64,000 nt of DNA from a virus: IMG/VR virus record IMGVR_UViG_3300042387_000948, positions 62,001 to 126,000 of that record. One strand, given 5' to 3'. Position 1 is the first letter of the stretch. Each line of letters opens with the position of its first letter. The notes under the pieces were generated by a model. That model ran no database searches. It was not told where the DNA came from and saw nothing but the letters and a program-made list of their open reading frames with translations. Shown in pieces: positions 8,704 to 58,258 of this stretch. A program made the position numbers and the translations under genes.

Positions 8704-8795
8704 TGGTAGAGAGTACCGGATTCGAACCGGTGGACAGGTTTAACCCCATCGGCAGTTTAGCAAACTACTGGTATCAGCCACTCACCCAACTCTCT
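8704..8795 (-). tRNA. tRNA-Ser (GCT), CCA encoded
   Basis: Acceptor AGAGAGT/ACTCTCT, canonical T arm with TTCGAAT, long variable arm, anticodon loop TTGCTAA. CCA is encoded. The discriminator is A rather than the G usual for Ser. Confidence 0.9.
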
Positions 8796-8804
8796 ATAAA
8801 TATA

Positions 8805-8978
8805 TGGCTGTAGTGGGAGGATTCGAACCATCCACAATGCGATTCAGTTAGTAACATCCGCCGGCCGGCTTGGTGGTCTACCCCATATTACTAACCTATT
8901 TCGTACTCATCACCCCCGAGACAGGAGGGCTTGTCTGCCAAATTAACACACGTGCTAATCATTTTCCAACACACTACA
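8805..8978 (-). ncRNA. tRNA-like element 1, 174 nt
   Basis: The 3' end is tRNA-like: a degenerate T arm with GGTTCGAATCC, then CACTACA, G and an encoded CCA. The only 7-nt complement (TGTAGTG) is about 160 nt upstream at 8972-8978, forming an acceptor-like closing stem. Between them are an AGACA/TGTCT hairpin and an 8-bp GTTAGTAA/TTACTAAC stem, with no normal anticodon arm. It could be an intron-bearing tRNA, a decayed tRNA or a new tRNA-like RNA. No tmRNA tag frame is visible. Confidence 0.5.
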
Positions 8979-8985
8979 ATTTTAA

Positions 8986-9074
8986 TGGAAGAGGGAGTAG
9001 GATTCGAACCCACGGACCTGTTACAGTCTCTTGATTTCAAGTCAAGTGCGATAGACCAACTCTGCCATCCCTCC
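8986..9074 (-). tRNA. tRNA-Ser (TGA), CCA encoded
   Basis: Acceptor GGAGGGA/TCCCTCT, anticodon loop CTTGAAA inside CTTGA/TCAAG, long variable arm, T loop TTCGAAT, CCA encoded. A U-type discriminator is unusual for Ser. Confidence 0.9.
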
Positions 9075-9079
9075 TTATT

Positions 9080-9646
9080 TTACTCTTTTTCTGCTTTTCT
9101 TTCTTCTACTACTTCTAAATATGCCTGATACAAAGAATCCTTATGCTCCATTAATTCATCAATTACACCCTGTCTATAATCTTCAGCTTCTTCATCATCT
9201 TCACTCCAATATTTATCCAAATCCAATTTAATATCCAAATCTTCCATATCATCGTAACCAAATCCAAATACAAATGCTCCCATAGGGTCTAAACATTCAT
9301 CTTCGTATGTACCATATAGAACTACATCTTTATTAATACCACATAATATATATGTCAACTTTTCTAAAAATTGAGTTGGTACACTCCAAGCTGATGTCAT
9401 GTAGATTTGGACTTCGGATTCAAAGTCTTCAGTAACGGCTGATTCTACTTCCAACCACTTTGCACCAATGTTATCATACCACCAATCTAACTTGCTGAAA
9501 TCCACATCTCCATACATTTGTTTGATGATGTGTTCAACATTGGTATAGTACTCATTAGTACCATCGTTAAAGATTTCTTTTAATTTGTCATACGATGGTT
9601 GGTCCAAATTCCCAATCGTAAGTGAGGTACTCATATGATTTGCCAT
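9080..9646 (-). CDS. Hypothetical protein, Api92/DUF1281-like layout
   Basis: 188 aa. GAKWLEVESAV followed by YMTSAWSVPTQFLEKL resembles the G-x-KW...TAWSPP core of YubB/Api92 ferredoxin-like phage proteins, whose function is unknown. The C-terminal third is strongly acidic. It lies between tRNA-Tyr and tRNA-Ser and is probably expressed with the array. The family call is weak. Confidence 0.6.
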   Translation of the reverse strand: MANHMSTSLTIGNLDQPSYDKLKEIFNDGTNEYYTNVEHIIKQMYGDVDFSKLDWWYDNIGAKWLEVESAVTEDFESEVQIYMTSAWSVPTQFLEKLTYILCGINKDVVLYGTYEDECLDPMGAFVFGFGYDDMEDLDIKLDLDKYWSEDDEEAEDYRQGVIDELMEHKDSLYQAYLEVVEERKAEKE

Positions 9647-9661
9647 AACTTATATTTTGTT

Positions 9662-9745
9662 TGGTGGGAGTAGAAGGACTCGAACCTCCGAACTCGTAGA
9701 GAAGTGATTTACAGTCACCCGCAATTGCCACTATGCGATACTCCC
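9662..9745 (-). tRNA. tRNA-Tyr (GTA), CCA encoded
   Basis: Acceptor GGGAGTA/TACTCCC, anticodon loop CTGTAAA in GTGA/TCAC, variable arm of class II length as expected for bacterial Tyr, CCA encoded. Confidence 0.92.
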
Positions 9746-9860
9746 AAATGTGTGGGTAGGAGTCTCATCCCACACTAGACTTAAGGTTTCGAGTTCTTTT
9801 ACAACTTACTCTGAAAGTTATTCGCCCGCGTGTCCTTCACCTTAAAGCGGGAGCTCCTTA
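9746..9860 (-). other. Structured spacer between tRNA-Gly and tRNA-Tyr
   Basis: No reading frame. Complementary pairs are visible: GTGTGGG/CCCACAC, CCCGC/GCGGG, AACTT/AAGTT and TTAAGGT/ACCTTAA. This suggests a folded RNA or processing element in the array transcript. Identity unknown. Confidence 0.35.
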
Positions 9861-9935
9861 TGGAGCAGGTAGTCAGATTCGAACTGACGTCTCCGGTTTG
9901 GAAGACCAGAGCACTAACCACTGTGCTATACCTGC
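9861..9935 (-). tRNA. tRNA-Gly (TCC), CCA encoded
   Basis: Acceptor GCAGGTA/TACCTGC with U73 as expected for Gly, anticodon loop CTTCCAA in CTGGT/ACCGG, canonical T arm, CCA encoded. Confidence 0.93.
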
Positions 9936-10155
9936 AAATTTCCCCACATTGAGATTCCATGTGAGTAGTTATTTATAGTTTTTCCTTTCAAAAACCCAAT
10001 GCATCTTACTGCTTAAAAAGTCAACACTACTGGGAGGAGATGTGTCGTTCTCCTTTATTCCCACGACACCGGCGTTTAAGGATGTCCGGTCCAATACCCT
10101 ATCCATTGTTAAATGAGTCTTGGATTAAAGACTACCGAGCATCTCTTACTCGTTG
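9936..10155 (-). other. Structured 220-nt intergenic region
   Basis: No credible gene. Several hairpins can be drawn on the minus strand: CGAG/CTCG, AGTCTT/AAGACT, CCGG/CCGG, TGGGA..GGAG/CTCC..TCCCA and CACAT/ATGTG. It may be a small ncRNA or a processed spacer of the tRNA transcript. Confidence 0.35.
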
Positions 10156-10229
10156 TGGACCAGGTAGGAATCGAACCTACTACCTTTTGATTATGAGTCA
10201 ACTGCTCTAACCGAGTGAGCTACAAGTCC
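10156..10229 (-). tRNA. tRNA-Met or lysidine-type tRNA-Ile (CAT)
   Basis: Acceptor GGACTTG/CTGGTCC (one mismatch), D arm GCTC..GAGC, anticodon loop CTCATAA, T arm GTAGG/CCTAC. No CCA encoded. One of three CAT tRNAs. Which is elongator, initiator or tRNA-Ile2 cannot be settled by eye. Confidence 0.88.
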
Positions 10230-10285
10230 ATATCGTTTAATCTAACGATAAAATCTGATATCGTTTCTTTCAACGATAATATGGG

Positions 10286-10393
10286 TACCGGAGGAGAGAT
10301 TGGTTACTCTCACGCAGTCCTTTTCGGTTACTGCACCACTTCGAATCAGGCACGTCTAATGGTTGTACTTCCCATTCTTTCCGCCACTCCGGC
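10286..10393 (-). ncRNA. tRNA-like element 2, 108 nt (Leu-like 5' end)
   Basis: Opens GCCGGAGTGGCGGAA, the standard 5' half-start of tRNA-Leu, and closes CTCCGGT-A, giving a 7-bp acceptor-like stem. The interior does not fold as a tRNA: there is an extra AATGG/CCATT hairpin, a GCAGT/ACTGC hairpin, and a GAGAG/CTCTC stem whose loop is not TTCRANY. It is either a decayed tRNA-Leu with an insertion or a tRNA-derived RNA. Confidence 0.45.
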
Positions 10394-10403
10394 ATATAAT
10401 TTT

Positions 10404-10479
10404 TGGTGGAGGATAACGGATTCGAACCGTTGTCTCCGCCGTGCAAGGGCGGTGCTAAAACCAGCTCAGCTAATCCCCC
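10404..10479 (-). tRNA. tRNA-Ala (TGC), CCA encoded
   Basis: Acceptor GGGGGAT/ATCCTCC, anticodon loop CTTGCAC in CCGCC/GGCGG, canonical T arm, CCA encoded. Confidence 0.93.
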
Positions 10480-10650
10480 AAACCGAAACCGCTATTTTCA
10501 TAACGGCTTCTTTTCTCCTTCTCCACTTACCTCTTTCGAGTGGAAGGCAAGATTGTAATGTAACGGCTGTGCGGTTTGTGTCCGAGATTGCTCTCCAGTT
10601 TCCATTTCATTCTTAGCGTCCGTTCCGCCATTCTTTCGAATCGTTACATT
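10480..10650 (-). ncRNA. Structured spacer RNA with GNRA hairpins
   Basis: The 94 nt at 10557-10650 are closed by a perfect 9-bp stem (AATGTAACG/CGTTACATT) and contain a GAGA-GCAA-TCTC hairpin. The adjoining 10480-10556 has two more GAAA-capped hairpins (CTC-GAAA-GAG within CCACT/AGTGG, and CCGTTAT-GAAA-ATAGCGG). No reading frame is convincing. It lies between tRNA-Leu and tRNA-Ala in the same transcript. Identity unknown. Confidence 0.4.
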
Positions 10651-10651
10651 G

Positions 10652-10734
10652 TACTTCGGACTGGAATCGAACCAGCACTCCATAAAGAAACAGCATTTTA
10701 AGTGCTGCGGGTCTACCGATTCCCCCACCGAAGC
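10652..10734 (-). tRNA. tRNA-Leu (TAA)
   Basis: Acceptor GCTTCGG/CCGAAGT, anticodon loop CTTAAAA in CAGCA/TGCTG, long variable arm, T arm GCTGG/CCAGT. CCA not encoded. Confidence 0.92.
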
Positions 10735-10743
10735 GAACTGAAC

Positions 10744-11097
10744 CTACACTTTTGTAAGTTTGGCTTTCTTAAACTTTGTGTGTTTCTGCTTACCACTAAT
10801 AAGAATATCCACACGTTTTGTGAACCTAGCATTCATTACATCTCTTACTACATAAACTCCATTGTGTTTACCGATGCCTGTAATTCGTACTTTAGTTCCA
10901 AATTTGTACTTTCTCTTCAAATCTCTACTAACTGCCACAATTCGGGTTGTTCCTTTCTTAATTCGAAACCCACTTGCCGTTAATCGAGGTGTACTATCTG
11001 TCTGCGATGTTGTTGCAGAATAAGTTGTCACTGTTACTATATCCGTTGCGTTTACTCCGAAACTCAAAAGGATACATACTATGGTCTTTTTTATCAT
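10744..11097 (-). CDS. Exported 3D/double-psi barrel protein
   Basis: 117 aa with an N-terminal hydrophobic signal (MIKKTIVCILLSFGVNA). The mature domain has VAVSRDLKRKYKFGTKVRI, ITGIGKHNGVYVVRDVM and FTKRVDILI, matching the small '3D' barrel domain related to MltA and RlpA, with Asp residues in RDVM and VDIL. Such domains cleave or bind peptidoglycan, so a cell-wall or lysis role is plausible. It lies inside the tRNA array, 9 nt from tRNA-Leu. Confidence 0.7.
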   Translation of the reverse strand: MIKKTIVCILLSFGVNATDIVTVTTYSATTSQTDSTPRLTASGFRIKKGTTRIVAVSRDLKRKYKFGTKVRITGIGKHNGVYVVRDVMNARFTKRVDILISGKQKHTKFKKAKLTKV

Positions 11098-11111
11098 ATA
11101 GTTTTATTTAG

Positions 11112-11185
11112 TGACTCCGTTTGGGTTCGAACCAAAGACCTATTCTTTAGAAGAGAATTGCTCTATCCAGCTGAGCTACGGAGCC
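11112..11185 (-). tRNA. tRNA-Arg (TCT)
   Basis: Acceptor GGCTCCG/CGGAGTC, D arm GCTC..GAGC, anticodon loop CTTCTAA in ATTCT/AGAAT, canonical T arm. It would read AGA/AGG codons, common in AT-rich genes. Confidence 0.93.
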
Positions 11186-11220
11186 GTTATTTATTCCTAC
11201 TTATAAATCTTTTATATAAC

Positions 11221-11586
11221 TTAAATCTTCATAGAGTCATCATCTTTACTTTCGGATGGTTTCTCTAATTTCAATTCAATTGGCGGATACTTTTTGATAA
11301 TCTCTAACGAATCTTCTGCTGCCCATTTCTCTTTTAATTGAGCACGTTTTTCGATGGTTTTGATATCAGCTTTAAGTTTATCAATTCTATCATTGATTTT
11401 CTTAATCTTTACCCATCTGGTTGCGTAATCTGATGTTGTTACTGTCTCCCATTCAATATCCCTTTGAAGGACTTTGATTTCTTTCTTAATTGTTTCAATT
11501 GCTCCTCTATCGTTTGATAATTGAGGGTCTACACCACCCAACAAACTATTGAAGAACATTGTAATTGATAATACGATTTCTTTCAT
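11221..11586 (-). CDS. Coiled-coil protein with N-terminal hydrophobic segment
   Basis: 121 aa. Residues 1-18 are hydrophobic (signal or anchor), followed by a long charged helix (KKEIKVLQRDI, DRIDKLKADIKTIEKR) with heptad-like spacing and an acidic tail. No family recognised. A class A promoter lies just upstream, and its transcript may continue into tRNA-Arg. Confidence 0.65.
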   Translation of the reverse strand: MKEIVLSITMFFNSLLGGVDPQLSNDRGAIETIKKEIKVLQRDIEWETVTTSDYATRWVKIKKINDRIDKLKADIKTIEKRAQLKEKWAAEDSLEIIKKYPPIELKLEKPSESKDDDSMKI

Positions 11587-11603
11587 AACTTATTTTGTTT
11601 TTA

Positions 11604-11635
11604 CAAAGATACGCAAAAGTTTTCACATATCCTAA
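11604..11635 (-). promoter_or_regulatory. Class A promoter
   Basis: Minus strand TTAGGATA, 16-nt spacer, TATCTTTG, followed by the coiled-coil gene at 11586. Confidence 0.78.
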
Positions 11636-11653
11636 TTTTATTTTTACTTTTTG

Positions 11654-11724
11654 ATGCCTTACTAGGATTCGAACCTAGACTAACTCCGCCAAAAGGAGTT
11701 GCGCTACCCTTACGCTATAAGGCA
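11654..11724 (-). tRNA. tRNA-Gln (TTG)
   Basis: Acceptor TGCCTTA/TAAGGCA, anticodon loop TTTTGGC in ACTCC/GGAGT, canonical T arm CTAGG/CCTAG. Confidence 0.9.
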
Positions 11725-11729
11725 ATTCG

Positions 11730-11803
11730 CAGTTCGTACGGGATTCGAACCCGTGGTCTCTTCCGTGACAGGGAAGCATGTTGGGCCTCTACACCAACGA
11801 ACT
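11730..11803 (-). tRNA. tRNA-Asp (GTC)
   Basis: Acceptor AGTTCGT/ACGAACT with G73 as expected for Asp, anticodon loop CTGTCAC in CTTCC/GGAAG, canonical T arm. Confidence 0.93.
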
Positions 11804-11808
11804 AAAAT

Positions 11809-11993
11809 AAAACAAACTTTTTGTGTCCTTCTACACATCATAACCAACTTTCATTGGCGGTTACATTTCGCATTGGGTTAATTACTCCCCACTTATAGTA
11901 ACTCTCTCCTGACCTGTATGACTATTCCGGCTTCAACAGGACCCATTTGGATTTTATATACCGAGGGGTTACACCACAGTCGTTGTTTGTTTT
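11809..11993 (-). ncRNA. Structured 185-nt spacer with 9-bp closing stem
   Basis: A perfect closing stem AAAACAAAC/GTTTGTTTT pairs 11809-11817 with 11985-11993. An inner CCAA/TTGG hairpin is visible. No reading frame of note. It ends 2 nt from tRNA-Thr. It could be a small ncRNA or an RNA-processing domain. Confidence 0.35.
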
Positions 11994-11994
11994 G

Positions 11995-12067
11995 AGCTTT
12001 TGATAGGACTCGAACCTACAACCTGCTGATTACAAATCAGCTGCACTACCAATTGTGCTACAAAAGC
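11995..12067 (-). tRNA. tRNA-Thr (TGT)
   Basis: Acceptor GCTTTTG/CAAAAGC, anticodon loop TTTGTAA in GCTGA/TCAGC, T arm GTAGG/CCTAT. Confidence 0.92.
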
Positions 12068-12125
12068 AATTTGTTCGTCTTTCCGAGCTGTCATCGGTTG
12101 ATTATATACAACACCACCGAAAGTG

Positions 12126-12197
12126 TACTCCCAACGGGAATCGAACCCGTGACTCATCCGTGAAAGGGACGTGACTTAACCGCTTGTCGATAGGAGC
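12126..12197 (-). tRNA. tRNA-Glu (TTC)
   Basis: Acceptor GCTCCTA/TGGGAGT (two wobble pairs), anticodon loop CTTTCAC, and an ACGGGTTCGATTCCCGT T arm typical of Glu. Confidence 0.92.
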
Positions 12198-12202
12198 AGA
12201 TG

Positions 12203-12332
12203 TGCGGATGGGAGGATTCGAACCTCCAGTTACCTCTTCATTGTAACTAATTACAATGGCCAGCCTTTATTTTTGTTATCTCCTTACGTTATGGAGTTCC
12301 CACATTACCATATACTTTAGCTGGTCACCCGC
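12203..12332 (-). ncRNA. tRNA-like element 3, 130 nt
   Basis: Canonical tRNA 3' half: T arm GGAGG-TTCGAAT-CCTCC and acceptor CATCCGC-A pairing with GCGGGTG at 12326-12332. The interior is not a tRNA: CCAGC/GCTGG encloses ~60 nt where the D loop should be, and the anticodon position holds an 8-bp CATTGTAA/TTACAATG stem with a 4-nt loop. It is the first element after the promoter at 12367, so it should be expressed. Possibly a tRNA-like RNA rather than a decoder. Confidence 0.5.
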
Positions 12333-12366
12333 TTTTTAATAATTATCAATATTTCAAAGAACACTA

Positions 12367-12398
12367 CAAAAATACGAAACTTTTTTCATATTTCCAAA
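12367..12398 (-). promoter_or_regulatory. Class A promoter inside the tRNA array
   Basis: Minus strand TTTGGAAA, 16-nt spacer, TATTTTTG. It points at tRNA-like element 3 and the tRNAs below it. Confidence 0.72.
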
Positions 12399-12420
12399 CA
12401 ATTCTTACTATTTAATTTGG

Positions 12421-12492
12421 GGTGTAAGGGCGGTATCGAACCGACTTCCCTGGCTCCACAAACCAGTACATCACCTTAATGCTTCAAACACC
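12421..12492 (-). tRNA. tRNA-His (GTG), irregular
   Basis: Anticodon loop TTGTGGA in CTGGT/GCCAG and a TTCGATA T loop. The 5' end starts GG and the 3' end has C73, consistent with the extra G-1 of His tRNAs. The acceptor has two mismatches and the D arm is weak, so function is less sure than for the second GTG tRNA. Confidence 0.7.
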
Positions 12493-12499
12493 ATTTTAA

Positions 12500-12778
12500 T
12501 TAGAAGCGGGATTCCGCCGCCCAATCTTCATTTACTAAATACCAATATTCTTCTCTTAAATAAATAATATCGTAACTACCATTACTATCAATCGAAACTA
12601 TATTTTTCTTAACCAACGAACCCAATGCCCCACGAAGAACTTTGGTAGAGATTCCCAATTCTGAACTCAAATCATTTACATCCACATCAGAGAAACCTGG
12701 TTCAGCATACAAACCACCAATAAAGGTAGTAAGGGTTTTGGTTTCCAATTCAGTCAAATTCAATTCGTTAATCATCAT
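12500..12778 (-). CDS. Winged-helix (MarR-like) small regulator
   Basis: 92 aa from the ATG at 12778. A frame starting with GTG at 12817 exists but would begin at the transcription start. LTELETKTLTTFIGGLYAE is followed by VDVNDLSSELGISTKVLRGALGSLVKK, a clear helix-turn-helix with a wing (NIVSIDSNGSYDIIYLR). Likely a DNA-binding regulator of phage or host promoters. Target unknown. Driven by a class B promoter and placed within the tRNA array. Confidence 0.7.
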   Translation of the reverse strand: MMINELNLTELETKTLTTFIGGLYAEPGFSDVDVNDLSSELGISTKVLRGALGSLVKKNIVSIDSNGSYDIIYLREEYWYLVNEDWAAESRF

Positions 12779-12821
12779 ATCTTTAGGTGGAGGGAGGGGA
12801 GTTTGTCTCTCAACCACGTAT

Positions 12822-12859
12822 TAAAGGTACGCAATTTTAATGAAATAAACAAGCCTTTT
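12822..12859 (-). promoter_or_regulatory. Class B promoter for the winged-helix gene
   Basis: Minus strand AAAAGGCTTG, 20-nt spacer, TACCTTTA. The flanking ACGTGG after the -7 box is shared with the promoters at 5341 and 29712. Confidence 0.78.
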
Positions 12860-12898
12860 GTAAAATATTTTTAAATTATTTTTAAATTATTTTTAAAG

Positions 12899-12969
12899 TT
12901 GCGTGTACGAGGTTCGAACTCATTTGGCTTTCCTTATGAGAGATAGCTCTTTTCCACTAAGCCACGCAA
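12899..12969 (-). tRNA. tRNA (CAT), Met or Ile2, irregular acceptor
   Basis: Acceptor TTGCGTG/CACGCAA, D arm GCT..AGC, anticodon loop CTCATAA, T arm ATGAG/CTCGT. Positions 8-9 are missing or shifted and one extra A follows the T stem. A second of three CAT tRNAs. Confidence 0.8.
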
Positions 12970-12973
12970 TGAT

Positions 12974-13047
12974 TGGTGTGATTGAAGGGAATCGAACCCT
13001 TATTGAATGCACCACAAACATTTGTCCTACCATTAGACGACAATCAC
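12974..13047 (-). tRNA. tRNA-His (GTG), CCA encoded
   Basis: Acceptor GTGATTG/CAATCAC, anticodon loop TTGTGGT in AATGT/GCATT, canonical GGGTTCGATTCCC T arm, CCA encoded. A73 is unusual for His. Confidence 0.85.
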
Positions 13048-13049
13048 CG

Positions 13050-13120
13050 AGGCGAGTACAGGATTCGAACCTGTGTAAGAGCTTTTGCAGAGCTCCATAT
13101 AACCACTCTAACAACTCGCC
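13050..13120 (-). tRNA. tRNA-Cys (GCA)
   Basis: Acceptor GGCGAGT/ACTCGCC with U73 as for Cys, anticodon loop CTGCAAA in GAGCT/AGCTC, canonical T arm. Confidence 0.93.
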
Positions 13121-13125
13121 TTATG

Positions 13126-13197
13126 TAGTTCCGGAGAGAATCGAACTCCCATCAATTGGTTCGTAGCCAATCATTTTATCCGTTAAACTACGGAACT
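13126..13197 (-). tRNA. tRNA-Arg (ACG)
   Basis: Acceptor AGTTCCG/CGGAACT, anticodon loop CTACGAA in ATTGG/CCAAT. A34 would need editing to inosine by host TadA to read all CGN codons. Confidence 0.93.
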
Positions 13198-13203
13198 ATT
13201 TTG

Positions 13204-13274
13204 CACACCCACTAGGATTCGAACCCAGAACAACGCTTTTGGAGAGCGGCATGATACCATTTCACTATGGATGC
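13204..13274 (-). tRNA. tRNA-Trp (CCA)
   Basis: Acceptor GCATCCA/TGGGTGT with G73 as for Trp, anticodon loop CTCCAAA in CCGCT/AGCGT, canonical T arm. Confidence 0.9.
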
Positions 13275-13295
13275 GGATAATACTAAATCGTATTG

Positions 13296-13373
13296 TTGGC
13301 AAGAGGGGATTCGAACCCATATTTTCAACCAATTACCTTACTCCAACTTATCAGATTGGGTGGATACTTGCCA
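13296..13373 (-). tRNA. tRNA-Ile (GAT)-like, D arm missing
   Basis: Perfect acceptor TGGCAAG/CTTGCCA and a perfect anticodon arm CCAAT-CTGATAA-GTTGG giving GAT. Only seven nucleotides separate the acceptor from the anticodon arm, so the D arm is absent. About 25 unpaired-looking nucleotides, including GGTAATTGGTT that resembles a D loop, lie after the anticodon arm. It may be non-functional, or a rearranged tRNA. Confidence 0.55.
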
Positions 13374-13382
13374 ATGTTAATG

Positions 13383-13460
13383 TGGTAGGGTAAGAGGGAT
13401 TTGAACCCCCATGATGTCTACAACCCAAATGTAGCGGCTTACCAGTTAGCCCATTACCCT
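13383..13460 (-). tRNA. tRNA-Pro (TGG), CCA encoded
   Basis: Acceptor AGGGTAA/TTACCCT, anticodon loop TTTGGGT in CTACA/TGTAG, T loop TTCAAAT, CCA encoded. Confidence 0.92.
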
Positions 13461-13466
13461 ATATTG

Positions 13467-13540
13467 TTCCCCCGGCGTGATTCGAACACGCGACCCCCTA
13501 TTTAAAAGATAGGTGCATCTACCAGCTGAGCTACGAGAGA
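13467..13540 (-). tRNA. tRNA-Lys (TTT)
   Basis: Acceptor TCTCTCG/CGGGGGA (wobbles), D arm GCTCAGCTGGTAGA, anticodon loop CTTTTAA in CCTAT/ATAGG, canonical T arm. Confidence 0.92.
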
Positions 13541-13589
13541 ATTTGTTTGTCATACTTGTCACTTTCCATAGTATAAATTGTTTAATTGT

Positions 13590-13666
13590 TGGTGGAGCAG
13601 ACAGGTATCGAACCTGTTCCTCTGGATTTTCAGTCCAGCGCAATGAACCTCATCTGCCACTACTCC
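13590..13666 (-). tRNA. tRNA-Phe (GAA), CCA encoded
   Basis: Acceptor GGAGTAG/CTGCTCC, anticodon loop CTGAAAA in CTGGA/TCCAG, T arm ACAGG/CCTGT, CCA encoded. Confidence 0.92.
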
Positions 13667-13704
13667 CTATTCCGATTTTGATATGTAGCATCGGGAACTA
13701 CCTG

Positions 13705-13778
13705 TGTCCATAGTAGGACTCGAACCTACACAAACTGGTTTCTAAGACCAGTGCGGTTGCCAATTACGCCATACGGAC
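13705..13778 (-). tRNA. tRNA with TAG anticodon (Leu codon CUA), short variable loop
   Basis: Acceptor GTCCGTA/TATGGAC, anticodon loop CTTAGAA in CTGGT/ACCAG, T arm GTAGG/CCTAC. The anticodon reads Leu codons, but the variable loop is only 5 nt whereas bacterial tRNA-Leu has a long variable arm. Charging identity is therefore uncertain. Confidence 0.85.
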
Positions 13779-13786
13779 ATTTAATG

Positions 13787-13859
13787 TAGTGAGTGAGGGA
13801 CTCGAACCCCCAACATCCGCCATGTAAAGACGGCGCTCTACCAATTGAGCTAACCCACT
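13787..13859 (-). tRNA. tRNA-Val (TAC)
   Basis: Acceptor AGTGGGT/ACTCACT, D arm GCTC..GAGC, anticodon loop TTTACAT in CCGTC/GGCGG, GGGGGTTCGAGTCCCTC T arm. Confidence 0.92.
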
Positions 13860-13890
13860 ATTTTTACCACGATGTCAAAGAACTCTATTG

Positions 13891-13962
13891 AGGGGAGGGA
13901 GAATTACGATATCTCGACCTGATGATTAACAGTCATCTGCTCTGCCTCTGAGCTACCACCCC
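13891..13962 (-). tRNA. tRNA-Asn (GTT), divergent T arm
   Basis: Acceptor GGGGTGG/CCTCCCC (one mismatch), D arm GCTC..GAGC, anticodon loop CTGTTAA in GATGA/TCATC. The T loop reads ATCGTAA rather than TTCRANY. Confidence 0.82.
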
Positions 13963-13967
13963 TTAAA

Positions 13968-14008
13968 ACAAAAAAACCCCTAACCGATTTTGATTTCAGT
14001 TAGGGGTC
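13968..14008 (-). terminator. Rho-independent terminator
   Basis: Minus strand 9-bp stem ACCCCTAAC/GTTAGGGGT followed by seven T. It ends the transcript of the 44-aa gene at 14033-14167. Confidence 0.85.
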
Positions 14009-14032
14009 TTTTAACCTTTATATGTAGTTTGG

Positions 14033-14167
14033 TTATTCCACTTCTACATTTTGTACCCCTAACGTTATTTCAATTCTCTTCGAATTAAAATCACACACAC
14101 CAATCCCAGCCCACAACATATTCGTTGCCGGTTGATAATTGGGTGTATGTAGGTTAAGAGTTTTCAT
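14033..14167 (-). CDS. Small hypothetical protein, 44 aa
   Basis: ATG at 14167 (MKTLNLHTPNYQPATNM). The same frame stays open to 14401, but that extension runs through two tRNA genes and is not credible. A strong terminator follows the stop, and a TATATAAAAG-type AT element lies just upstream, which supports a real short mRNA. No family recognised. Confidence 0.5.
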   Translation of the reverse strand: MKTLNLHTPNYQPATNMLWAGIGVCDFNSKRIEITLGVQNVEVE

Positions 14168-14299
14168 TCTATTTCTTTTATATAAGTATGTATTATTTAA
14201 TTTTTCAGTTTTTCCACATCTTTTAGTGTTATGGGAGACCGAAATCTCCCACTCCACAGTGTAATAAAAATCAAGATATGAAAACAACTCACGTTGTAG

Positions 14300-14370
14300 A
14301 GCGGTGGGATGGAATTGAACCATCTCCTTCGACCTGGACGGCCGATGTGCTACCGTAACACTTCCTCCGC
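14300..14370 (-). tRNA. tRNA-Gly-like (apparent TCC), non-canonical loop
   Basis: Acceptor GCGGAGG/CCACCGC with U73 (Gly-like), T loop TTCAATT, anticodon loop CGTCCAG in CGGC/GTCG. Position 33 is G instead of the near-universal T, so decoding is doubtful. Confidence 0.55.
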
Positions 14371-14375
14371 TTGTG

Positions 14376-14445
14376 AGCGGAACTAAGGAATCGAACCCCA
14401 ACTTCTCTACGGATGTAGAGCGTGCTACCTTTACACTAATACCGC
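14376..14445 (-). tRNA. tRNA-Gly-like (apparent TCC), short anticodon loop
   Basis: Acceptor GCGGTAT/GTTCCGC with U73, T arm TTGGGGTTCGATTCC. The anticodon arm CTCTA-CATCCG-TAGAG has a 6-nt loop. Like its neighbour it resembles tRNA-Gly but breaks loop rules. It directly follows the large ncRNA. Confidence 0.5.
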
Positions 14446-16212: not shown

Positions 16213-16434
16213 TCATAACCCATATACTGGTTTGATAGATTCTTCTCTATTTAAAGTGATGTTTCTATCCATTCGTATATCTTTATTACTTAGAGTCCAG
16301 ATTTCTCCATCATCCATTCCGCAAGTAAAGTATAAATCGTGCTCCTGAGAGTAATCTATACACATAAATGCAAATCCTTTCATTCCGTCCTTTACCCTAA
16401 CTATGGGTATGGTTGGATTCAATTGTATTATCAT
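16213..16434 (-). CDS. Small conserved phage protein, 73 aa
   Basis: Start at 16434 gives MIIQLNPTIPIVRVKDG..., followed by FMCIDYSQEHDLYF and GEIWTLSNKDIRM. I recall this LNPPIP...IDYSQEHDL...GEIWTVPN pattern from many phages, always as hypothetical. The start overlaps the bilin reductase gene's end by 38 nt but keeps the conserved N-terminus. Function unknown. Confidence 0.7.
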   Translation of the reverse strand: MIIQLNPTIPIVRVKDGMKGFAFMCIDYSQEHDLYFTCGMDDGEIWTLSNKDIRMDRNITLNREESIKPVYGL

Positions 16435-17068
16435 TCTTTTGTATTTTAGGGAACAATATTTGCTCCATAAAGTAACGTGCTCTTTCTTCACCTATCTTTG
16501 CTTTCAATGCTCCAAAGGTTCTAGGGTTTGATGCTTGAACTTCACAATAACGATTTTGGATATCAATAACTTTATTAATATCACTCGCCTCTTCTTTTAA
16601 ATATAACCCATCCTTCAAAAACGTTTTGTACTTTTCTAATGACCAACTGCAAAACCTCATAAACTCACTATCAGATTCAGGTTTAATCATAATAAATTTA
16701 TCCGAAAAAACAGTTGCCCATTGAGGTAGTGGTTTTCTCCCATTAAAATCTATATCCTCATCAAAGTTATACTCCTTAATGCCAGGTGATAAGTCCATAT
16801 AAACACCAGTTACACCCGATTTAGTAGTTATGACATCAAAACCATATATGGGTTCTGGTGATGTTGGATTTGGGAATGTGGTAACGTGTAGTACCTCAAT
16901 TGCCCTATCACCATATCTTTCAACGTGTGCCATTCTATACACATCAGATTCAAAACGATGATTCACCCACCCAAAATCTTCAGTAGGTAATACTTTACAA
17001 CCCGGTGCGTGTTTCATTATAGAAAGAAACCTATCGGCTAACTCATCCAAATATTCGGTGTAGTTCAT
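16397..17068 (-). CDS. Ferredoxin-dependent bilin reductase (PcyA/PcyX-like)
   Basis: 223 aa, the size of phage bilin reductases. Core EVLHVTTFPNPTSPEPIYGFD matches the FDBR pattern ILHxxxFPRP...PxFGxD, with His and Asp at the positions of PcyA His88 and Asp105. YMDLSPG and the C-terminal QNRYCEVQASNPRTFGALK, then ARYFMEQILFP match the Y..YC..Q..N.KT...A..Y....LF signature. The enzyme would reduce biliverdin with ferredoxin electrons. Retention of His points to PcyA/PcyX rather than PebS (Asn). It overlaps the heme oxygenase gene by 26 nt, so the pair likely makes and reduces biliverdin. Confidence 0.82.
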   Translation of the reverse strand: MNYTEYLDELADRFLSIMKHAPGCKVLPTEDFGWVNHRFESDVYRMAHVERYGDRAIEVLHVTTFPNPTSPEPIYGFDVITTKSGVTGVYMDLSPGIKEYNFDEDIDFNGRKPLPQWATVFSDKFIMIKPESDSEFMRFCSWSLEKYKTFLKDGLYLKEEASDINKVIDIQNRYCEVQASNPRTFGALKAKIGEERARYFMEQILFPKIQKNDNTIESNHTHS

Positions 17069-17555
17069 CTAATATCTTTATGTTGTAATCCAATGCTTTG
17101 TTTGCTTCATCAGCCCACTCATCTTTTTGGATTGCTCTAATACTTCCAGCTGCCTCTCTCATATCCTCAAACTCATACATTCTACCACTACCCGGCGTTT
17201 TCTCTTTCATCATCTGTCCACCAAACATAATAGCTAGGTAGTTAAGATATATGTGTGGTTGTTGTTCTTCTGCCGTTAATGTGTTTAGGTAATCACAATA
17301 TTCAGCAGTACTTAATAATAATGGAATTGTATCCTCACCTACCAATTCAATAATATCTGCTTCAACTAAATCCTTTCTATTCAAAGATGGATGCGGTAGT
17401 GGATTCTTTTCTAATGTGTAGAAAATTGCGTCTTGTTGTGTTAAGTAGTTTGCATACTCTTCGTTATTTAACTCACCTCTAAACATCTTTTGATTGAATG
17501 GCATTTTTTCTGCCAATGAATGTTTTTCTGCTATTGCTTCTTTTAATGGTAACAT
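17043..17555 (-). CDS. Heme oxygenase
   Basis: 170 aa. LKEAIAEKHSLAEKMPFNQ carries the heme-ligating His (residue 12) in the standard context, and YLAIMFGGQMMKEKTPG supplies the distal-helix Gly-Gly, followed by RMYEFED. The enzyme opens heme with O2 and reductant to biliverdin, Fe2+ and CO. It is shorter than cellular HO1 (about 210-240 aa), typical of compact phage forms. Directly followed by the bilin reductase. Alternative role: iron release from host heme. Confidence 0.83.
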   Translation of the reverse strand: MLPLKEAIAEKHSLAEKMPFNQKMFRGELNNEEYANYLTQQDAIFYTLEKNPLPHPSLNRKDLVEADIIELVGEDTIPLLLSTAEYCDYLNTLTAEEQQPHIYLNYLAIMFGGQMMKEKTPGSGRMYEFEDMREAAGSIRAIQKDEWADEANKALDYNIKILDELHRIFG

Positions 17556-17557
17556 AT

Positions 17558-17800
17558 TTATATTGTTTTAGTTATTTTAATCATTATACCAGCACGTCCG
17601 GCTGATATGTGGTACTTATTCTCTCTATTATCATTTATCCAACCATAACTTTTAAATCGATATAGTATTACCTCTTTGTTTTCAAACCACGCGTGGATAC
17701 AATTGGTTGCGTAATCGATGTGGGGGTCTCTAATAAATCCCAACTTCCAACTTTCAACAAATTCCGATTCTAATTCATCGGTATCAATTGTAATTACCAT
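17558..17800 (-). CDS. Hypothetical protein, 80 aa
   Basis: Begins MVITIDTDELESEFVESWK and appears beta-rich with conserved-looking Trp and Tyr residues. No family recognised. It lies 2 nt upstream of the heme oxygenase gene and so belongs to the same transcript. Confidence 0.6.
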   Translation of the reverse strand: MVITIDTDELESEFVESWKLGFIRDPHIDYATNCIHAWFENKEVILYRFKSYGWINDNRENKYHISAGRAGIMIKITKTI

Positions 17801-23930: not shown

Positions 23931-24137
23931 TTACCTACCACCAATCCAATCATCCCAACTCTTTTTTGAGACAAATTCCCCATTTCTATCCACATTAACG
24001 GAAATTAACTTAACCATATACACAAATGGCCAAAGAACAAACCAACATATTAGAGATACTACAACCGATATCGATAGGATTAGAACCAACATTCCAACTA
24101 CCACTTTAATCAATAACCATTTGAATAACTTTTTCAT
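23931..24137 (-). CDS. Small membrane protein, 68 aa
   Basis: Two closely spaced hydrophobic stretches (VVVGMLVLILSISVVV and LICWFVLWPFVYMV) and a short polar tail with KKSWDDWIGGR. Overlaps the superoxide dismutase gene by 4 nt. No family recognised. Confidence 0.6.
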   Translation of the reverse strand: MKKLFKWLLIKVVVGMLVLILSISVVVSLICWFVLWPFVYMVKLISVNVDRNGEFVSKKSWDDWIGGR

Positions 24138-24784
24138 CCTTCGTAATTTTTTTGGGCTTTATCCCAATCCAAGCACTCAAAAAATGAATCTATCCACCCG
24201 CTCCTATTACTCTTATGTTTTAGGTAATACGAATGTTCCCACAAATCGCATCCTATGATTGGTATGTATTGGTTATTAGGAAACATTAAAGGATTGTCTT
24301 GATTTTGGGTTGTTATTATGGATAACTCTCCTCCATTATCCTTCACTAACCAAACCCAACCTGAACCAAATCTTTTTAGACCTTCCTCTCTAAACTTCTC
24401 TATAAAGGATTCCATACTTCCCCATTTTTTACCAATAGAAAGAGATAGATTTCCTTTGGGTGTGGTTTTATTAGGAGTCAATAACCTAAAGAAGAAATTG
24501 TGATTCCATATCCCACCCCCATTATTGCGGATTCCACTCTCATACGAACGGATATCACCTAATACTTCCTCCAGAGACCTTTGAGAAGCCGGTGTTCCAT
24601 CGATTAGAGAATTGTAGGTTTCCACATACTTCTTCAGATGCTTTGTGTGATGTTCCCTCATTGTCTCCTCATCGATGATGGGTTCTAAGGCATTATACTC
24701 GTAAGGTAGTGGTATTAAGTGTTGAGCGGAATTCTTTCCGTGTATCTCAACTAAATCCTTAAAACTCATCATTCCGCTTTCCAT
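24134..24784 (-). CDS. Fe/Mn superoxide dismutase
   Basis: 216 aa. All four metal ligands are in place: EHHTKH, WNHNFF, then Asp and His in GCDLWEHSYYLKH. FGSGWVWLVKDNGG is the family's GSGW core. It dismutates superoxide to H2O2 and O2. No signal peptide, so cytoplasmic, though packaging in the virion is possible. Metal preference is not resolved. The first few residues overlap the gene above, and a start a few codons later is possible. Confidence 0.9.
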   Translation of the reverse strand: MESGMMSFKDLVEIHGKNSAQHLIPLPYEYNALEPIIDEETMREHHTKHLKKYVETYNSLIDGTPASQRSLEEVLGDIRSYESGIRNNGGGIWNHNFFFRLLTPNKTTPKGNLSLSIGKKWGSMESFIEKFREEGLKRFGSGWVWLVKDNGGELSIITTQNQDNPLMFPNNQYIPIIGCDLWEHSYYLKHKSNRSGWIDSFFECLDWDKAQKNYEG

Positions 24785-46414: not shown

Positions 46415-47308
46415 TTAATTATTCGATTGATTTTCGATAAGTTTTGCTACAAATTTCTTTACCTCTTCCTGTCCCAATTGATGCGCAGCATCATAAAACT
46501 CTTTCTTTTTATCAATTGGTTTAATTTTATCCGAATATGATGGAGTTCTATTGAAATAATCTTCGGTAATATACACCCCATCCAACACAAATTGCCTAAT
46601 ACCAGCTCCCAACTTATTACCCACTGTTGCTGCTGCCATTCCATATGTATCTTCAGGTCCATAACCTTTAAATGATTCAGGTATACCAACCAATTCCCAA
46701 AATGATTTAGAGTATAGAGTATGCATACCACATCCAAATTTAATTGTTTCTATTTCTCTCGCGGTTACAGCTTTTATTTCTTGAACCAATGTGTTATCAG
46801 CAATTTCTTTGGAATCCATTGCATAACCATATGGTTTATCTTTGTAATCCGAATGACATAAATCTTCCCAACTATCATCCCACCATTTTGGAAGTGATGG
46901 TGATACTATATATGTACCATCTAATTGATATGATATATTTAATTGATACTTTAACATATGTTCGTGCATCAAAATATCATTATCTACAAATATAAATTGG
47001 TCATAATCTAATTTGTAACTTTCTCTTTTTTGTTGTGTAGTTCCCCAACAGGATGTATCTAATATTACTTCGTTTATATTTTTAACACCATTGAATAATA
47101 CACCAAATCTTGCAACAAAATATCCTTGCTTCAATTCACTATTATCCCAATCAGTTAGCTCTGGATTTAAGTTTAGAGTTACTTTAAGTGTCACATCATC
47201 ATCCCCATCCAAATATTGAAGTGCTTTGTGATATTGTTGCATAAATCGTTCAAACATCTCTAATTCGGATGGCATTACGTGTATGCAAACTAATGTTCTT
47301 TTTTTCAT
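46415..47308 (-). CDS. GT-A glycosyltransferase
   Basis: 297 aa. YDQFIFVDNDILMHEHM has a DxD metal site and FKGYGPEDTYGMAAA the GPED motif seen in polymerising galactosyl/GalNAc-type transferases. Donor unknown. Last gene of the ~16-kb sugar cluster. Confidence 0.72.
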   Translation of the reverse strand: MKKRTLVCIHVMPSELEMFERFMQQYHKALQYLDGDDDVTLKVTLNLNPELTDWDNSELKQGYFVARFGVLFNGVKNINEVILDTSCWGTTQQKRESYKLDYDQFIFVDNDILMHEHMLKYQLNISYQLDGTYIVSPSLPKWWDDSWEDLCHSDYKDKPYGYAMDSKEIADNTLVQEIKAVTAREIETIKFGCGMHTLYSKSFWELVGIPESFKGYGPEDTYGMAAATVGNKLGAGIRQFVLDGVYITEDYFNRTPSYSDKIKPIDKKKEFYDAAHQLGQEEVKKFVAKLIENQSNN

Positions 47309-47309
47309 T

Positions 47310-48542
47310 TTAAAATACGTTTTTAAACAATGGTTTAATCATGTCCTTTGTTGTTAATTTATATATTTCTATTTCAAATATATCCCAATCAAATGTACCA
47401 ACTGAATCATTTTGTTGTATTACAAATGGTAAATTCATAATAAATTGTTGATAATGTTCTTGCGTTAATTTAGAACCATCAAATCTAACTACCACATCTC
47501 CAAATAATTCATCATTTACTGAATAAACTTTTTCAGATATATCAAACATAGTTTCTTTACTTTCATTTTGGATGTAAGAATCGTACTCACAATCCACATA
47601 TATTCTATCACACCAAGGTTCTAATATAGAAAGTAATTGTGGTGTACAATTTACAATTACAAATGTAGTATCATATCTTTTTGGTACTATTGGTAGCATA
47701 TTATCATCATGCAATACATTGGTATGCCATTTTCTCCACCACTCTCTGAACTTATTCTCTCTTAATTTTGTATATTCTACCGAATCTTTAGGTTTGTACC
47801 ATATAGTTCCATCCGGTAATGGTATCTCTCTTTCAATTTCAATACCATCTTTAAATCTACTACCTCTACAAGTCATATGATATACAAATGCATCTCTACT
47901 TTGTACCAATTTATAACCAGCTAAATCCATCCGATTGAATATATCAGAATCTTCCAACTCCATAGGTGCAAATAATAAATCATGTCCACCAATTGATGTA
48001 AAATCTTCTTTATATAGCATCCATGGTGCAAAGATACCATATGTTACTAACCCTTCATTTTGAGTTTCTAATGTAGCAACAAAGTGTGTAAATGCATCTT
48101 CTTTTGCAAAAAATTCATCAACTTCCAATCCAAAGTTCATTACATACTTTTCAGGTCCCGGTGGGTGAAGTGGTGGTTCTATACGAGTAGCACTTACCAC
48201 AGTCATTGGTTTTAGATGCTTTAACATATTACCAACATAGTTTTCAGTAACTACCATATCCGAATGTAGAATTGTAACTATTGGTGTTGTTGCCAACTTA
48301 ATACCAACATCATATAGAACTGTATGCCCAACTCTATCCGATGATTCATTACGATATTTTGTATAGTGTTCTGCCTCTAACGAGTTTATCCACTCCCAAG
48401 TACCATCGGTTGATGCATCATCTAATATAATAATGTGGTGGTATGTTCCGTAATGTTTTTCAATACTACTAACTGCCTGCTTTAAATAAGGTAAGTTATT
48501 TCTACAAGGTATAATAAAACTTATTGGTTGGTTCTTTGTCAT
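47310..48542 (-). CDS. Family 2 glycosyltransferase with extra C-terminal domain
   Basis: 410 aa. SFIIPCRNNLPYLKQAVSSI, HIIILDDASTDGTWEW and TILHSDMVV define a GT2 domain in the first ~110 residues. MELEDSDIFNRM is the acceptor-side ED motif. The last ~130 residues form a separate domain of unknown role. Overlaps the kinase gene by 4 nt. Confidence 0.82.
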   Translation of the reverse strand: MTKNQPISFIIPCRNNLPYLKQAVSSIEKHYGTYHHIIILDDASTDGTWEWINSLEAEHYTKYRNESSDRVGHTVLYDVGIKLATTPIVTILHSDMVVTENYVGNMLKHLKPMTVVSATRIEPPLHPPGPEKYVMNFGLEVDEFFAKEDAFTHFVATLETQNEGLVTYGIFAPWMLYKEDFTSIGGHDLLFAPMELEDSDIFNRMDLAGYKLVQSRDAFVYHMTCRGSRFKDGIEIEREIPLPDGTIWYKPKDSVEYTKLRENKFREWWRKWHTNVLHDDNMLPIVPKRYDTTFVIVNCTPQLLSILEPWCDRIYVDCEYDSYIQNESKETMFDISEKVYSVNDELFGDVVVRFDGSKLTQEHYQQFIMNLPFVIQQNDSVGTFDWDIFEIEIYKLTTKDMIKPLFKNVF

Positions 48543-49291
48543 TTCTTAATATAATTTCCTACTTTTGTTACTCCTTTATGCTGTACTACTATCGTAGCAC
48601 ATTCGTTTGCGTATAATATTGCTTTACCAATATCACCACTCCTACACCACTCAACTACTAAACCTGATATGAATGTATCACCAGCTCCACTATTATCTCT
48701 AACCTCCACTTCCTTTACATTGTATTCGGTTTCCATATACTTACATCCCTTTCCACTCATAGTTACAATTAACTTATCGTAGAACTCTTTGAAGTACTGT
48801 CCAGCTGCTATGTTGTTTGCATATTCGTATTCATTTATCTTAATGAATTTTGCATCTAACATATACTCATTAACAATCTTTTTGGTATCTATAAAAACTG
48901 CTGAATGTGATTTACAAATAAACTGAATATCTTCGTATGTTAATAACCCTTTATTGTAGTCCGATATAATAACTGCATCATAATCTCCAAACTTAATCTT
49001 ATCCAAATTTTTAATTCTTGGGATAGATGATGTTTCGGAATCTATTCGTATAATTTGGTGATTTGTCTTTTCTTCTACATATCGGGTTTTAGTTACCGGA
49101 TTCTCATTGGTAACTAAATGAACGTCCACTTCCAATGATTCTATATTTTCAAATACATTAGCTGCCATACCACCCGTCCGTGTCTCCCTTTTGGGGATAA
49201 ACACAGGAACGGGTGCTTCAGGGCAAAGTCTATCCGCTTTACCATAAACATAGACATCAATACAACTATCTCCTATAACTAATATATTCAT
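48539..49291 (-). CDS. PfkB-family sugar kinase, HldE/RfaE-like
   Basis: 250 aa. ILVIGDSCIDVYVYGKADRLCPEAPVPVF closely follows the start of the heptose-7-phosphate kinase domain of HldE (in segments), and DNSGAGDTFISGLV is the PfkB signature with the catalytic Asp. Shorter than HldE kinase (~310 aa) and without the nucleotidyltransferase domain. Would phosphorylate a sugar for activation. Confidence 0.8.
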   Translation of the reverse strand: MNILVIGDSCIDVYVYGKADRLCPEAPVPVFIPKRETRTGGMAANVFENIESLEVDVHLVTNENPVTKTRYVEEKTNHQIIRIDSETSSIPRIKNLDKIKFGDYDAVIISDYNKGLLTYEDIQFICKSHSAVFIDTKKIVNEYMLDAKFIKINEYEYANNIAAGQYFKEFYDKLIVTMSGKGCKYMETEYNVKEVEVRDNSGAGDTFISGLVVEWCRSGDIGKAILYANECATIVVQHKGVTKVGNYIKK

Positions 49292-49292
49292 A

Positions 49293-49697
49293 TTACCAAC
49301 TAATTTCCCAATCTTTGAATTCTGCTGCTAAGCAATCAATTTTGTAATCTTTTCTACCACCATTCACCTCTTGGATTTTGTTCTTAGCTACGTTACGAAT
49401 ACCATTTAATCCGTGCGTTAATTCCAAATTGTTACCATCTCTAATACCTTTACGATAGTTGGATTCATTATGCCAAATGTGTAAGTTCATTTGTGAAAGA
49501 ACTACAACTGCTCTAATAGTTTCGGCAGTTACAGCTTCGGTACTCTCATCCAAATACAATTGAATATCATGTACAATTGCTGCAATCTCTTCAGCGTATT
49601 CTGCTTTGTGGTCTGTAATGAATACTTCTTTTAATTGAACAATAGATAATCTATCAATCAATTCACTTAATGTTGGTAAATATTTTCTCTCTTCCAT
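49293..49697 (-). CDS. Hypothetical protein in sugar cluster, 134 aa
   Basis: Helical protein with LPTLSELIDRLSIVQLKEVF and IRNVAKNKIQEVNGGRKDYK. Similar small helical proteins turn up in phage and bacterial nucleotide-sugar operons as I recall, without known function. Spaced 1-2 nt from both neighbours. Confidence 0.6.
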   Translation of the reverse strand: MEERKYLPTLSELIDRLSIVQLKEVFITDHKAEYAEEIAAIVHDIQLYLDESTEAVTAETIRAVVVLSQMNLHIWHNESNYRKGIRDGNNLELTHGLNGIRNVAKNKIQEVNGGRKDYKIDCLAAEFKDWEISW

Positions 49698-49698
49698 A

Positions 49699-50643
49699 TT
49701 ATAAATTTGTAAAATTTTTGTTGTTGTATTTAATAATTACTTTGTATGCTTCTAACAATTGTTTGATACCATAATCCAAATCGTAGATAGGTTTCCAACC
49801 TCTACTTTCTAACTTATCATTTGATACAATGTAGTTTCTCTTATCAAAATCTTCTTTGAAATCATCTTCCTTAATAACCAAAGATGGTATATGTGATTTA
49901 ATCTTTTCTGCCAATTCCAACTTTGATAAGTTAGCAGTTGATAATCCTACGTTGAATGCCTCACCCTTACAAGCATCATAATTCTCAATGATGAATTGGA
50001 ATGTTCTAGCTATGTCCTGAACGTGAATGTAGTTTCTCTTAAAGTGTCCTTCAAACAACACTAAATAACCATCTACTGCACTTTTATAAACAAAATCGTT
50101 TACTAACAAATCCTGTCTCATTCGAGGTGATACACCAAACACCGTTGCCAATCTTAATGATACACCATTTCCATTTGCCAATAAAGCGTTCTCCGCATTA
50201 CATTTTGTTTCTGCGTATAATGATAATGGATTAAATGGTGAGTCTTCGGTAATGATTGAATCAGATGAACCATATTGTGAATTGGTATTAGGTAAGATTA
50301 ACTTTTGGTTATCTCTTAGGACTTCAATCACATCAACTACCTGCTGATAGTTTACCGCTATCGTTAAATCAGGATTTGCTTTACATGCAGGCATTCCTAC
50401 GATTGCAGCCAATGGAATAATCACATCATGCTCCCCTACTAACTTTTGTAGTAATTCTTTGTTTCTTACATCACCCATCTCAAACTTAAAACCTTCTCTC
50501 TTAAAAAGGTGTAATAATGATAGTTGTTTGTAAGATAAATTATCCAATACCGTTACTGAATAACCTTCATTTAATAGGTGCTCCGTTAATGTAGAACCTA
50601 AATACCCAGCACCGCCGGTAATTAAAACTTTTTCTTTACTCAT
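49699..50643 (-). CDS. NAD-dependent sugar epimerase/dehydratase
   Basis: 314 aa extended SDR. VLITGGAGYLGSTLTEHLL binds NAD, and SLYAETKCNAE has the YxxxK pair. It modifies a nucleotide sugar by epimerisation or dehydration. Substrate not resolved. Overlaps the next SDR gene by 4 nt. Confidence 0.85.
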   Translation of the reverse strand: MSKEKVLITGGAGYLGSTLTEHLLNEGYSVTVLDNLSYKQLSLLHLFKREGFKFEMGDVRNKELLQKLVGEHDVIIPLAAIVGMPACKANPDLTIAVNYQQVVDVIEVLRDNQKLILPNTNSQYGSSDSIITEDSPFNPLSLYAETKCNAENALLANGNGVSLRLATVFGVSPRMRQDLLVNDFVYKSAVDGYLVLFEGHFKRNYIHVQDIARTFQFIIENYDACKGEAFNVGLSTANLSKLELAEKIKSHIPSLVIKEDDFKEDFDKRNYIVSNDKLESRGWKPIYDLDYGIKQLLEAYKVIIKYNNKNFTNL

Positions 50644-52570: not shown

Positions 52571-52581
52571 AATTGTTGTTT

Positions 52582-54226: not shown

Positions 54227-54227
54227 A

Positions 54228-54929: not shown

Positions 54930-54940
54930 AATTTATTTTG

Positions 54941-58257: not shown

Positions 58258-58258
58258 A

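Follow-up and report, generated by a model that had tools for sequence, protein, structure and literature searches.

The question raised by this locus is why a phage that looks to infect Bacteroidota carries, side by side, genes for a heme oxygenase (HO)-fold protein and a ferredoxin-dependent bilin reductase (FDBR), and what the two would make. The stretch analysed, referred to as the window, comprises 64,000 bases (62001-126000 of the 207,029-base virus record IMGVR_UViG_3300042387_000948). Both genes lie on its minus strand, HO at 17043..17555 (170 aa) and FDBR at 16397..17068 (223 aa). The 3' end of HO overlaps the 5' end of FDBR by 26 nt (17043..17068), from which we infer translational coupling. 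An 80-aa ORF with no assigned function (17558..17800, minus strand), located 2 nt upstream of HO, is probably co-transcribed with it, and its homologue was observed close to the cassette in 13 of 29 compared loci.

A first-pass annotation, made from the letters alone, had described an overlapping HO and FDBR in an apparent Bacteroidetes phage with no photosystem or phycobiliprotein genes nearby. The overlap is as described, and the second statement can be widened, as neither a photosystem (psbA-type) gene nor a phycobiliprotein (PF00502) match was found across the 207 kb record, which may be incomplete.

Classification of the bilin reductase

The FDBR protein was assigned to its family by Pfam (PF05996, Fe_bilin_red; E 1.6e-18, 67.7 bits, curated cut-off 31), by PDB sequence matches to PcyX (5owg, 3.5e-18) and Synechocystis PcyA (2d1e, 8e-14), and by its predicted fold. 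The AlphaFold model (mean pLDDT 92.0) retrieved PcyA 2d1e in a Foldseek search (E 9.7e-14, TMq 0.79). The protein also matches phrog_7278, 'ferredoxin oxidoreductase' (2.4e-23).

Residues Glu76, His88 and Asp105 are critical in Synechocystis PcyA, Glu76 being PcyA-specific and required for 18-vinyl reduction (PMC10151467). The complete triad is present in the window FDBR as Glu50 (16919-16921), His61 (16886-16888) and Asp78 (16835-16837), all on the minus strand; the His and Asp had been recognized in the first-pass annotation, which did not mention the Glu. Within the clade of the window FDBR, Glu occupies the Glu76 site in all 65 sequences aligned there, and the equivalents of His88 and Asp105 are invariant (66/66 each), whereas marine PcyX sequences have Asp at the Glu76 site in 81 of 81 cases. 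PcyX, which carries Asp55, makes phycoerythrobilin, and the FDBR of the freshwater phage CB_2, which is without this PcyX-specific Asp55, makes phycocyanobilin (PMC11480375). In our alignment, Asp55 coincides with the Glu76 site. Based on this difference between Glu and Asp, the window FDBR is classified by its sequence as PcyA-like, and phycocyanobilin, a blue bile pigment, is predicted to be its probable main product. The residue by itself does not fix the product, because in the sister L116 clade, a second freshwater-type group (L204-L228), the Glu76 site varies (Glu in 22 of 27, Ser in 2, and Gln, Cys and His in 1 each).

The comparison with PcyA, PebS and PcyX that had been proposed earlier was performed as a maximum-likelihood tree, in which cyanobacterial PcyA (100/100), marine PcyX (100/99) and the L116 clade (94/97) are all apart from the window group. 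The window FDBR thus falls outside the cyanobacterial PcyA clade, the one that the tree covers among the known PcyA lineages (cyanobacterial, green and AX). The root of the tree is unsure, PebS rooting being unreliable (branch length 9.8). Other identities were considered and rejected. A PcyX identity disagrees with Glu at the Asp55/Glu76 site and with the placement apart from the PcyX clade. A PebS identity disagrees with the presence of both His and Glu (in PebS of P-RSM6, Asn replaces His88 and Asp replaces Glu76) and with the very long and distant PebS branch. A pre-PcyA identity disagrees with the presence of both the Glu76 and the His88 equivalents and with the lack of a PF00502 match in the genome.

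Conservation of the gene pair

Scans of IMG/VR revealed 26 relatives found by HO and 67 found by FDBR; the alignments used for this were narrow ones, because diversity became too great once FDBRs from cyanophages and marine phages were included. FDBR follows HO in all 26 HO-found loci, and HO is directly upstream of FDBR in 66 of the 67 FDBR-found viral loci, the remaining locus starting at a contig end. The other neighbours of the cassette vary among loci and include thymidylate synthase (by Pfam) and GroES/GroEL, sugar-nucleotide and unassigned genes (read from sequence). Among five close members, HO has dN/dS values of 0.13-0.21 and FDBR of 0.06-0.24, which shows purifying selection on both. 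Because the pairing is kept while neighbours change, and dN/dS is low, the two genes are taken to be selected as a pair. Judging by sequence, these HO and FDBR pairs form a large separate family. No FDBR relative was detected in the plasmid collection scanned.

Individual loci show further peculiarities. The two genes at L228:1418-2624 differ in affinity, HO falling among marine PcyX-type HOs (99/96) and FDBR in the L116 clade, so this pair is possibly of mixed origin. In L204-L228, the HO-FDBR pair is directly preceded by ORFs that, as read from sequence, resemble Hsp20 and ClpS.

The heme oxygenase and its distal pocket

The HO protein matches PF01126 (Heme_oxygenase; E 1.5e-12, 48.2 bits, curated cut-off 23), and Pfam therefore agrees with the first-pass annotation for both proteins of the pair. 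PDB sequence matches to HmuO and other HOs are weak (HmuO 8e-4). With the AlphaFold model (mean pLDDT 97.1), Foldseek retrieved Synechocystis HO-1 (E 1.7e-7, TMq 0.84), human HO-1 and many other HOs.

The heme His and the distal GG described at first pass are present on the minus strand as His12 (17520-17522), equivalent to the proximal heme ligand His25, and as Gly112-Gly113 (17217-17222), equivalent to the GG containing Gly143; Arg140 (minus strand) corresponds to Arg183. The canonical HO implied by these residues stands only in this part, as the altered distal pocket had been overlooked. Ile109 (17229-17231, minus strand) is found at the position of Asp140, Asn105 at that of Arg136, Phe45 at that of Tyr58 and Ala108 at that of Gly139. 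In addition, the protein is ~ 30-40 residues shorter than typical HOs.

These features characterize the whole window HO clade. Equivalents of His25, His132, Tyr134, Gly143 and Arg183 are kept in 64 of 64 members, whereas Asp140 is present in none (Leu in 29, Ile in 25, Pro in 5, and others). Arg136 is likewise absent from all 64, with Asn or His throughout, while Tyr58 persists in 6 (absent from 58/64; Phe in 55) and Gly139 is replaced by Ala in 59/64. In contrast, HOs of marine cassettes retain Asp140, Arg136 and Tyr58 in all 68 cases, and those of the L116 clade retain Asp140 and Tyr58 in 27/27, with Trp at Arg136.

In human HO-1, the distal network is thought to aid oxygen activation, D140A turns the enzyme into a peroxidase, and the balance between oxygenase and peroxidase has been studied with the G139A mutant (PMC5623701). 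With three network positions changed almost throughout the clade, and with purifying selection showing that the altered protein is useful, the HO-fold protein could be no classical oxygenase, acting instead as a peroxidase or with other regiochemistry beside a reductase that uses another or an external bilin. We consider this distinctly unlikely, as the constant partner is a PcyA-like reductase that has kept its triad and whose known relatives act on biliverdin IXalpha. Moreover, soybean (plant) HO-1 is active without Asp140 and Arg136 by means of an alternative network (PMC7948506), and BphO-type HOs of Bacteroidota, reading GSTLGG, are likewise without the Asp, so the changed pocket is no proof of inactivity. 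As far as sequence can tell, the changed distal network is a real departure from canonical HOs and not proof of lost activity, and the window HO is predicted, with good likelihood, to be active as a heme oxygenase. Decay of the HO gene was rejected, since the gene is under purifying selection and the remaining heme-site residues are conserved throughout the clade.

A more far-reaching proposal, which we rate as rather unlikely, is that in this family of Bacteroidota phages the hydrophobic distal pocket would activate oxygen in a manner unlike HO-1, HmuO and plant HO, or would support another heme reaction, and that together with the PcyA-type reductase it would yield a bilin otherwise unavailable to the host bacteria. 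In either case, a ready set of proteins for testing the need for the network is at hand, since the distal Asp has been lost naturally across this selected family (60 or more members) and retained in the sister clade and in marine relatives.

Genome and host

T4-like hallmarks in the genome are a tail sheath, DNA polymerase and DnaB-type helicase. The window contains 25 tRNA genes within ~ 6 kb (8704-14445), a nearly full set with some ORFs in between.

Low use of Shine-Dalgarno (SD) sites, a TTTG/TAnnTTTG promoter and Gln after signal-peptide cleavage are marks of Bacteroidota. SD-like sites were found for 4% of ORFs here and 6% in a Flavobacterium phage stretch, in comparison with 28% in P-SSM4, 28% in Mel-JY01 and 67% in the Mosig stretch. 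The promoter motif TTTG-N16-23-TAnnTTTG occurs upstream of 11 ORFs vs 0.8 expected; it is by itself not decisive, because Mel-JY01 shows it (5 vs 0.6 expected) and the Flavobacterium phage stretch does not (0 vs 0.1). Nine signal peptides cut before Gln were identified here and six in the Flavobacterium phage, while the cyanophage stretch (P-SSM4) has none and Mel-JY01 no convincing one. Elsewhere in the record, a gene resembling outer-membrane receptors combines CarboxypepD_reg, TonB plug and OMP_b-brl_4 (L034:9078-12338, equal to G000:28078-31338, plus strand). Based on these sequence features the host looks to belong to Bacteroidota, in accordance with the first-pass annotation.

The nearest isolate by tail sheath (48%) and DNA polymerase (51%), Mel-JY01 (PP395634.1), is recorded from Microcystis elabens, and this is what speaks for a cyanobacterial host in which the cassette would serve phycobilisomes as in cyanophages. 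The claim that the phage is not a cyanophage thus meets an awkward closest relative, although one without the low SD use and the Gln-type signal peptides seen here. These two differences, which separate the window from P-SSM4 as well, the promoter motif (with the caveat of its presence in Mel-JY01), the CarboxypepD_reg/TonB-type receptor gene, the lack of a psbA-type or phycobiliprotein gene in the record and the position of FDBR outside the cyanobacterial PcyA clade together make a cyanobacterial host highly improbable. In the annotation of Mel-JY01 no photosynthesis gene is named, and its host record appears doubtful. Mel-JY01 also carries a 'major paralogous domain' gene at L119:5529-6170.

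Host signals are shared by other members of the core clade (SD 5%), whereas SD values lie at 31-38% in the L116 clade and in basal members (L104-L113). For this reason, the cassette seems to have been transferred between phages of different host phyla.

Possible roles of the cassette

To address what the pair might contribute, 396 Bacteroidota genomes were inspected. An FDBR was found in only one, and this copy is broken by an internal stop. Since the phylum is almost devoid of FDBR, the phage would supply a reaction missing from it, the clade would extend the host range of the cassette into such a phylum, and an explanation by light harvesting fails. The broken copy (L049:5200-5688, in the Bacteroidetes MAG G001) has one TAA, shares 34% identity with the window FDBR and resides on an 8 kb contig; it is possibly a phage remnant, a transfer or a binning error. 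A Bacteroidota genomic source of FDBR was rejected, this copy being the sole candidate in the 396 genomes.

The reading that we prefer, with a probability of about 0.62, is a two-enzyme pathway in a Bacteroidota phage, leading from heme through biliverdin IXalpha to phycocyanobilin. For its reactions, product and benefit we infer the following. The HO-fold protein would bind heme via His12 and open the ring to biliverdin IXalpha, iron and CO. Host ferredoxin would feed the PcyA-like reductase, which would convert biliverdin to phycocyanobilin in a four-electron step. The likeliest benefit would be that heme iron is freed quickly while infection proceeds; by clearing biliverdin, the reductase would pull HO forward and would yield a soluble, reducing pigment. 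In favour of this reading, no protein that uses bilins was found in the phage genome. The absence of Asp140, Arg136 and Tyr58 from HO, as read from its sequence, counts against this pathway.

The suggestion of iron comes from genomic context. When a profile of the phage HOs was compared with eight bacterial HOs, two Bacteroidota HOs scored best by far (~ 7e-45). They retain Asp140 and sit between imelysin and di-haem oxidoreductase genes, a setting that by analogy suggests a part in the handling of iron or heme. These two group with L116 and marine HOs in the HO tree (94/91), apart from the window clade, and they therefore indicate context and not ancestry; the imelysin/DHOR operon may be linked to the phage HO by analogy. 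Several relatives of the cassette have NifU/IscU-like and IscA-like Fe-S genes nearby (L004:11013-12378, L010:1-1133, L015:3080-4328). On these two grounds, iron salvage is tentatively favoured over other uses as the main purpose, at less than even odds. Two points count against it. NifU and IscA genes and a 2Fe-2S (Fer2) ferredoxin gene were not found in this 207 kb record, which may be incomplete, and an aim limited to iron would not require the reductase, which is nevertheless retained in every case.

Biliverdin is the usual chromophore of bacteriophytochromes. The first-pass annotation had suggested searching for these in candidate hosts, and a PHY domain was indeed found in 40 of the 396 Bacteroidota genomes and HO in 44, mostly adjacent to each other. 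While infecting, the phage could accordingly use phycocyanobilin to load a bacteriophytochrome of its host or to re-tune it, an activity resembling that of CB_2 vHemO and vPcyA, which load Cph1 in E. coli (PMC11480375). This is unlikely to be the purpose, because only ~ 10% of Bacteroidota have a phytochrome, those that do usually own an HO for biliverdin, and the 207 kb phage record (which may be incomplete) yielded no phytochrome gene.

Bilins are also antioxidants, and an Fe/Mn superoxide dismutase (SOD) gene is located on the same strand as the cassette (24134..24784, minus) and near the cassette of the closest relative, L002. Conceivably, heme freed in host takeover would be turned into reducing bilins that act together with the phage SOD in an antioxidant or heme-detoxifying module, although a functional partnership of this SOD with the cassette is possible only. 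SOD was noticed just in these two closest genomes and HO frees redox-active iron, itself an oxidative stress, which makes such a module quite unlikely.

Relation to known systems

HO and FDBR pairs were already known from viruses infecting cyanobacteria and proteobacteria. Outside cyanophages they have been published from pelagiphages and from a freshwater phage whose host is proposed to be an alphaproteobacterium, their co-occurrence being called enigmatic (PMC11480375). The setting described as unusual at first pass is hence less unprecedented than it seemed, as cassettes of Mosig and CB_2 (PMC11480375) were already known; what remains of the claim is a non-cyanobacterial phage of Bacteroidota type. 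A literature search, in which few subscription papers were covered, disclosed no report of HO and FDBR in Bacteroidota phages or of the missing distal network.

The nearest named cassette is the marine hemO-pcyX of Pelagibacter phage Mosig EXVC030M (32% identity for both proteins). Both are large T4-like phages with a non-cyanobacterial host and HO directly upstream of FDBR, but Mosig has a ferrochelatase and four 2OG oxygenases nearby. Marine PcyX (PcyX_EBK42635, PDB 5owg) differs from the window FDBR in having Asp for Glu76 and making phycoerythrobilin, and the accompanying HOs in retaining the Asp140, Arg136 and Tyr58 network. CB_2 resembles the window in its hemO-pcyA pair and in an FDBR without the PcyX Asp55, and its vHemO and vPcyA have been shown to make biliverdin and PCB (PMC11480375). 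As judged by its published description, it is set apart by its proposed alphaproteobacterial host and by alaS (PMC11480375). The three-gene hemO-pcyA/X-alaS phage cassette is not matched here, as alaS was not found, there being no PF00155 (aminotransferase-I/II) match in the 207 kb record, perhaps incomplete.

PcyA of cyanobacteria, cyanophages, algae and alphaproteobacteria has Glu76, His88, Asp105 and the fold (2d1e) in common with the window FDBR, while cyanobacterial and cyanophage PcyA differ by their low identity (~ 24-30%) and separate clade (100/100). HO-1, HmuO and BphO (PF01126) share with the window HO the fold, the His25 ligand, GG, His132, Tyr134 and Arg183, and differ in length and in the Asp140-Arg136-Tyr58 network, which is replaced here. 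Pre-PcyA clusters of heterotrophic bacteria are similar in combining FDBR with HO outside photosynthetic organisms (PMC10151467). However, pre-PcyAs lack Glu76 and His88, both of which the window FDBR has, and belong to a BBAG gene cluster (PMC10151467); no phycobiliprotein-family match was found here.

Other genes in the window

Further genes of the window were also recorded. A flavoprotein of tryptophan halogenase type (PF04820, 1.2e-101) is encoded in this phage at 5814-7340. A subtilase-type protease (PF00082) at 36136-37734 matches phrog_9158, which has no assigned function. A long series of ORFs resembling glycosyltransferase and sugar-nucleotide genes (read from sequence) extends over 46415-62981 and is possibly a surface-glycan locus.
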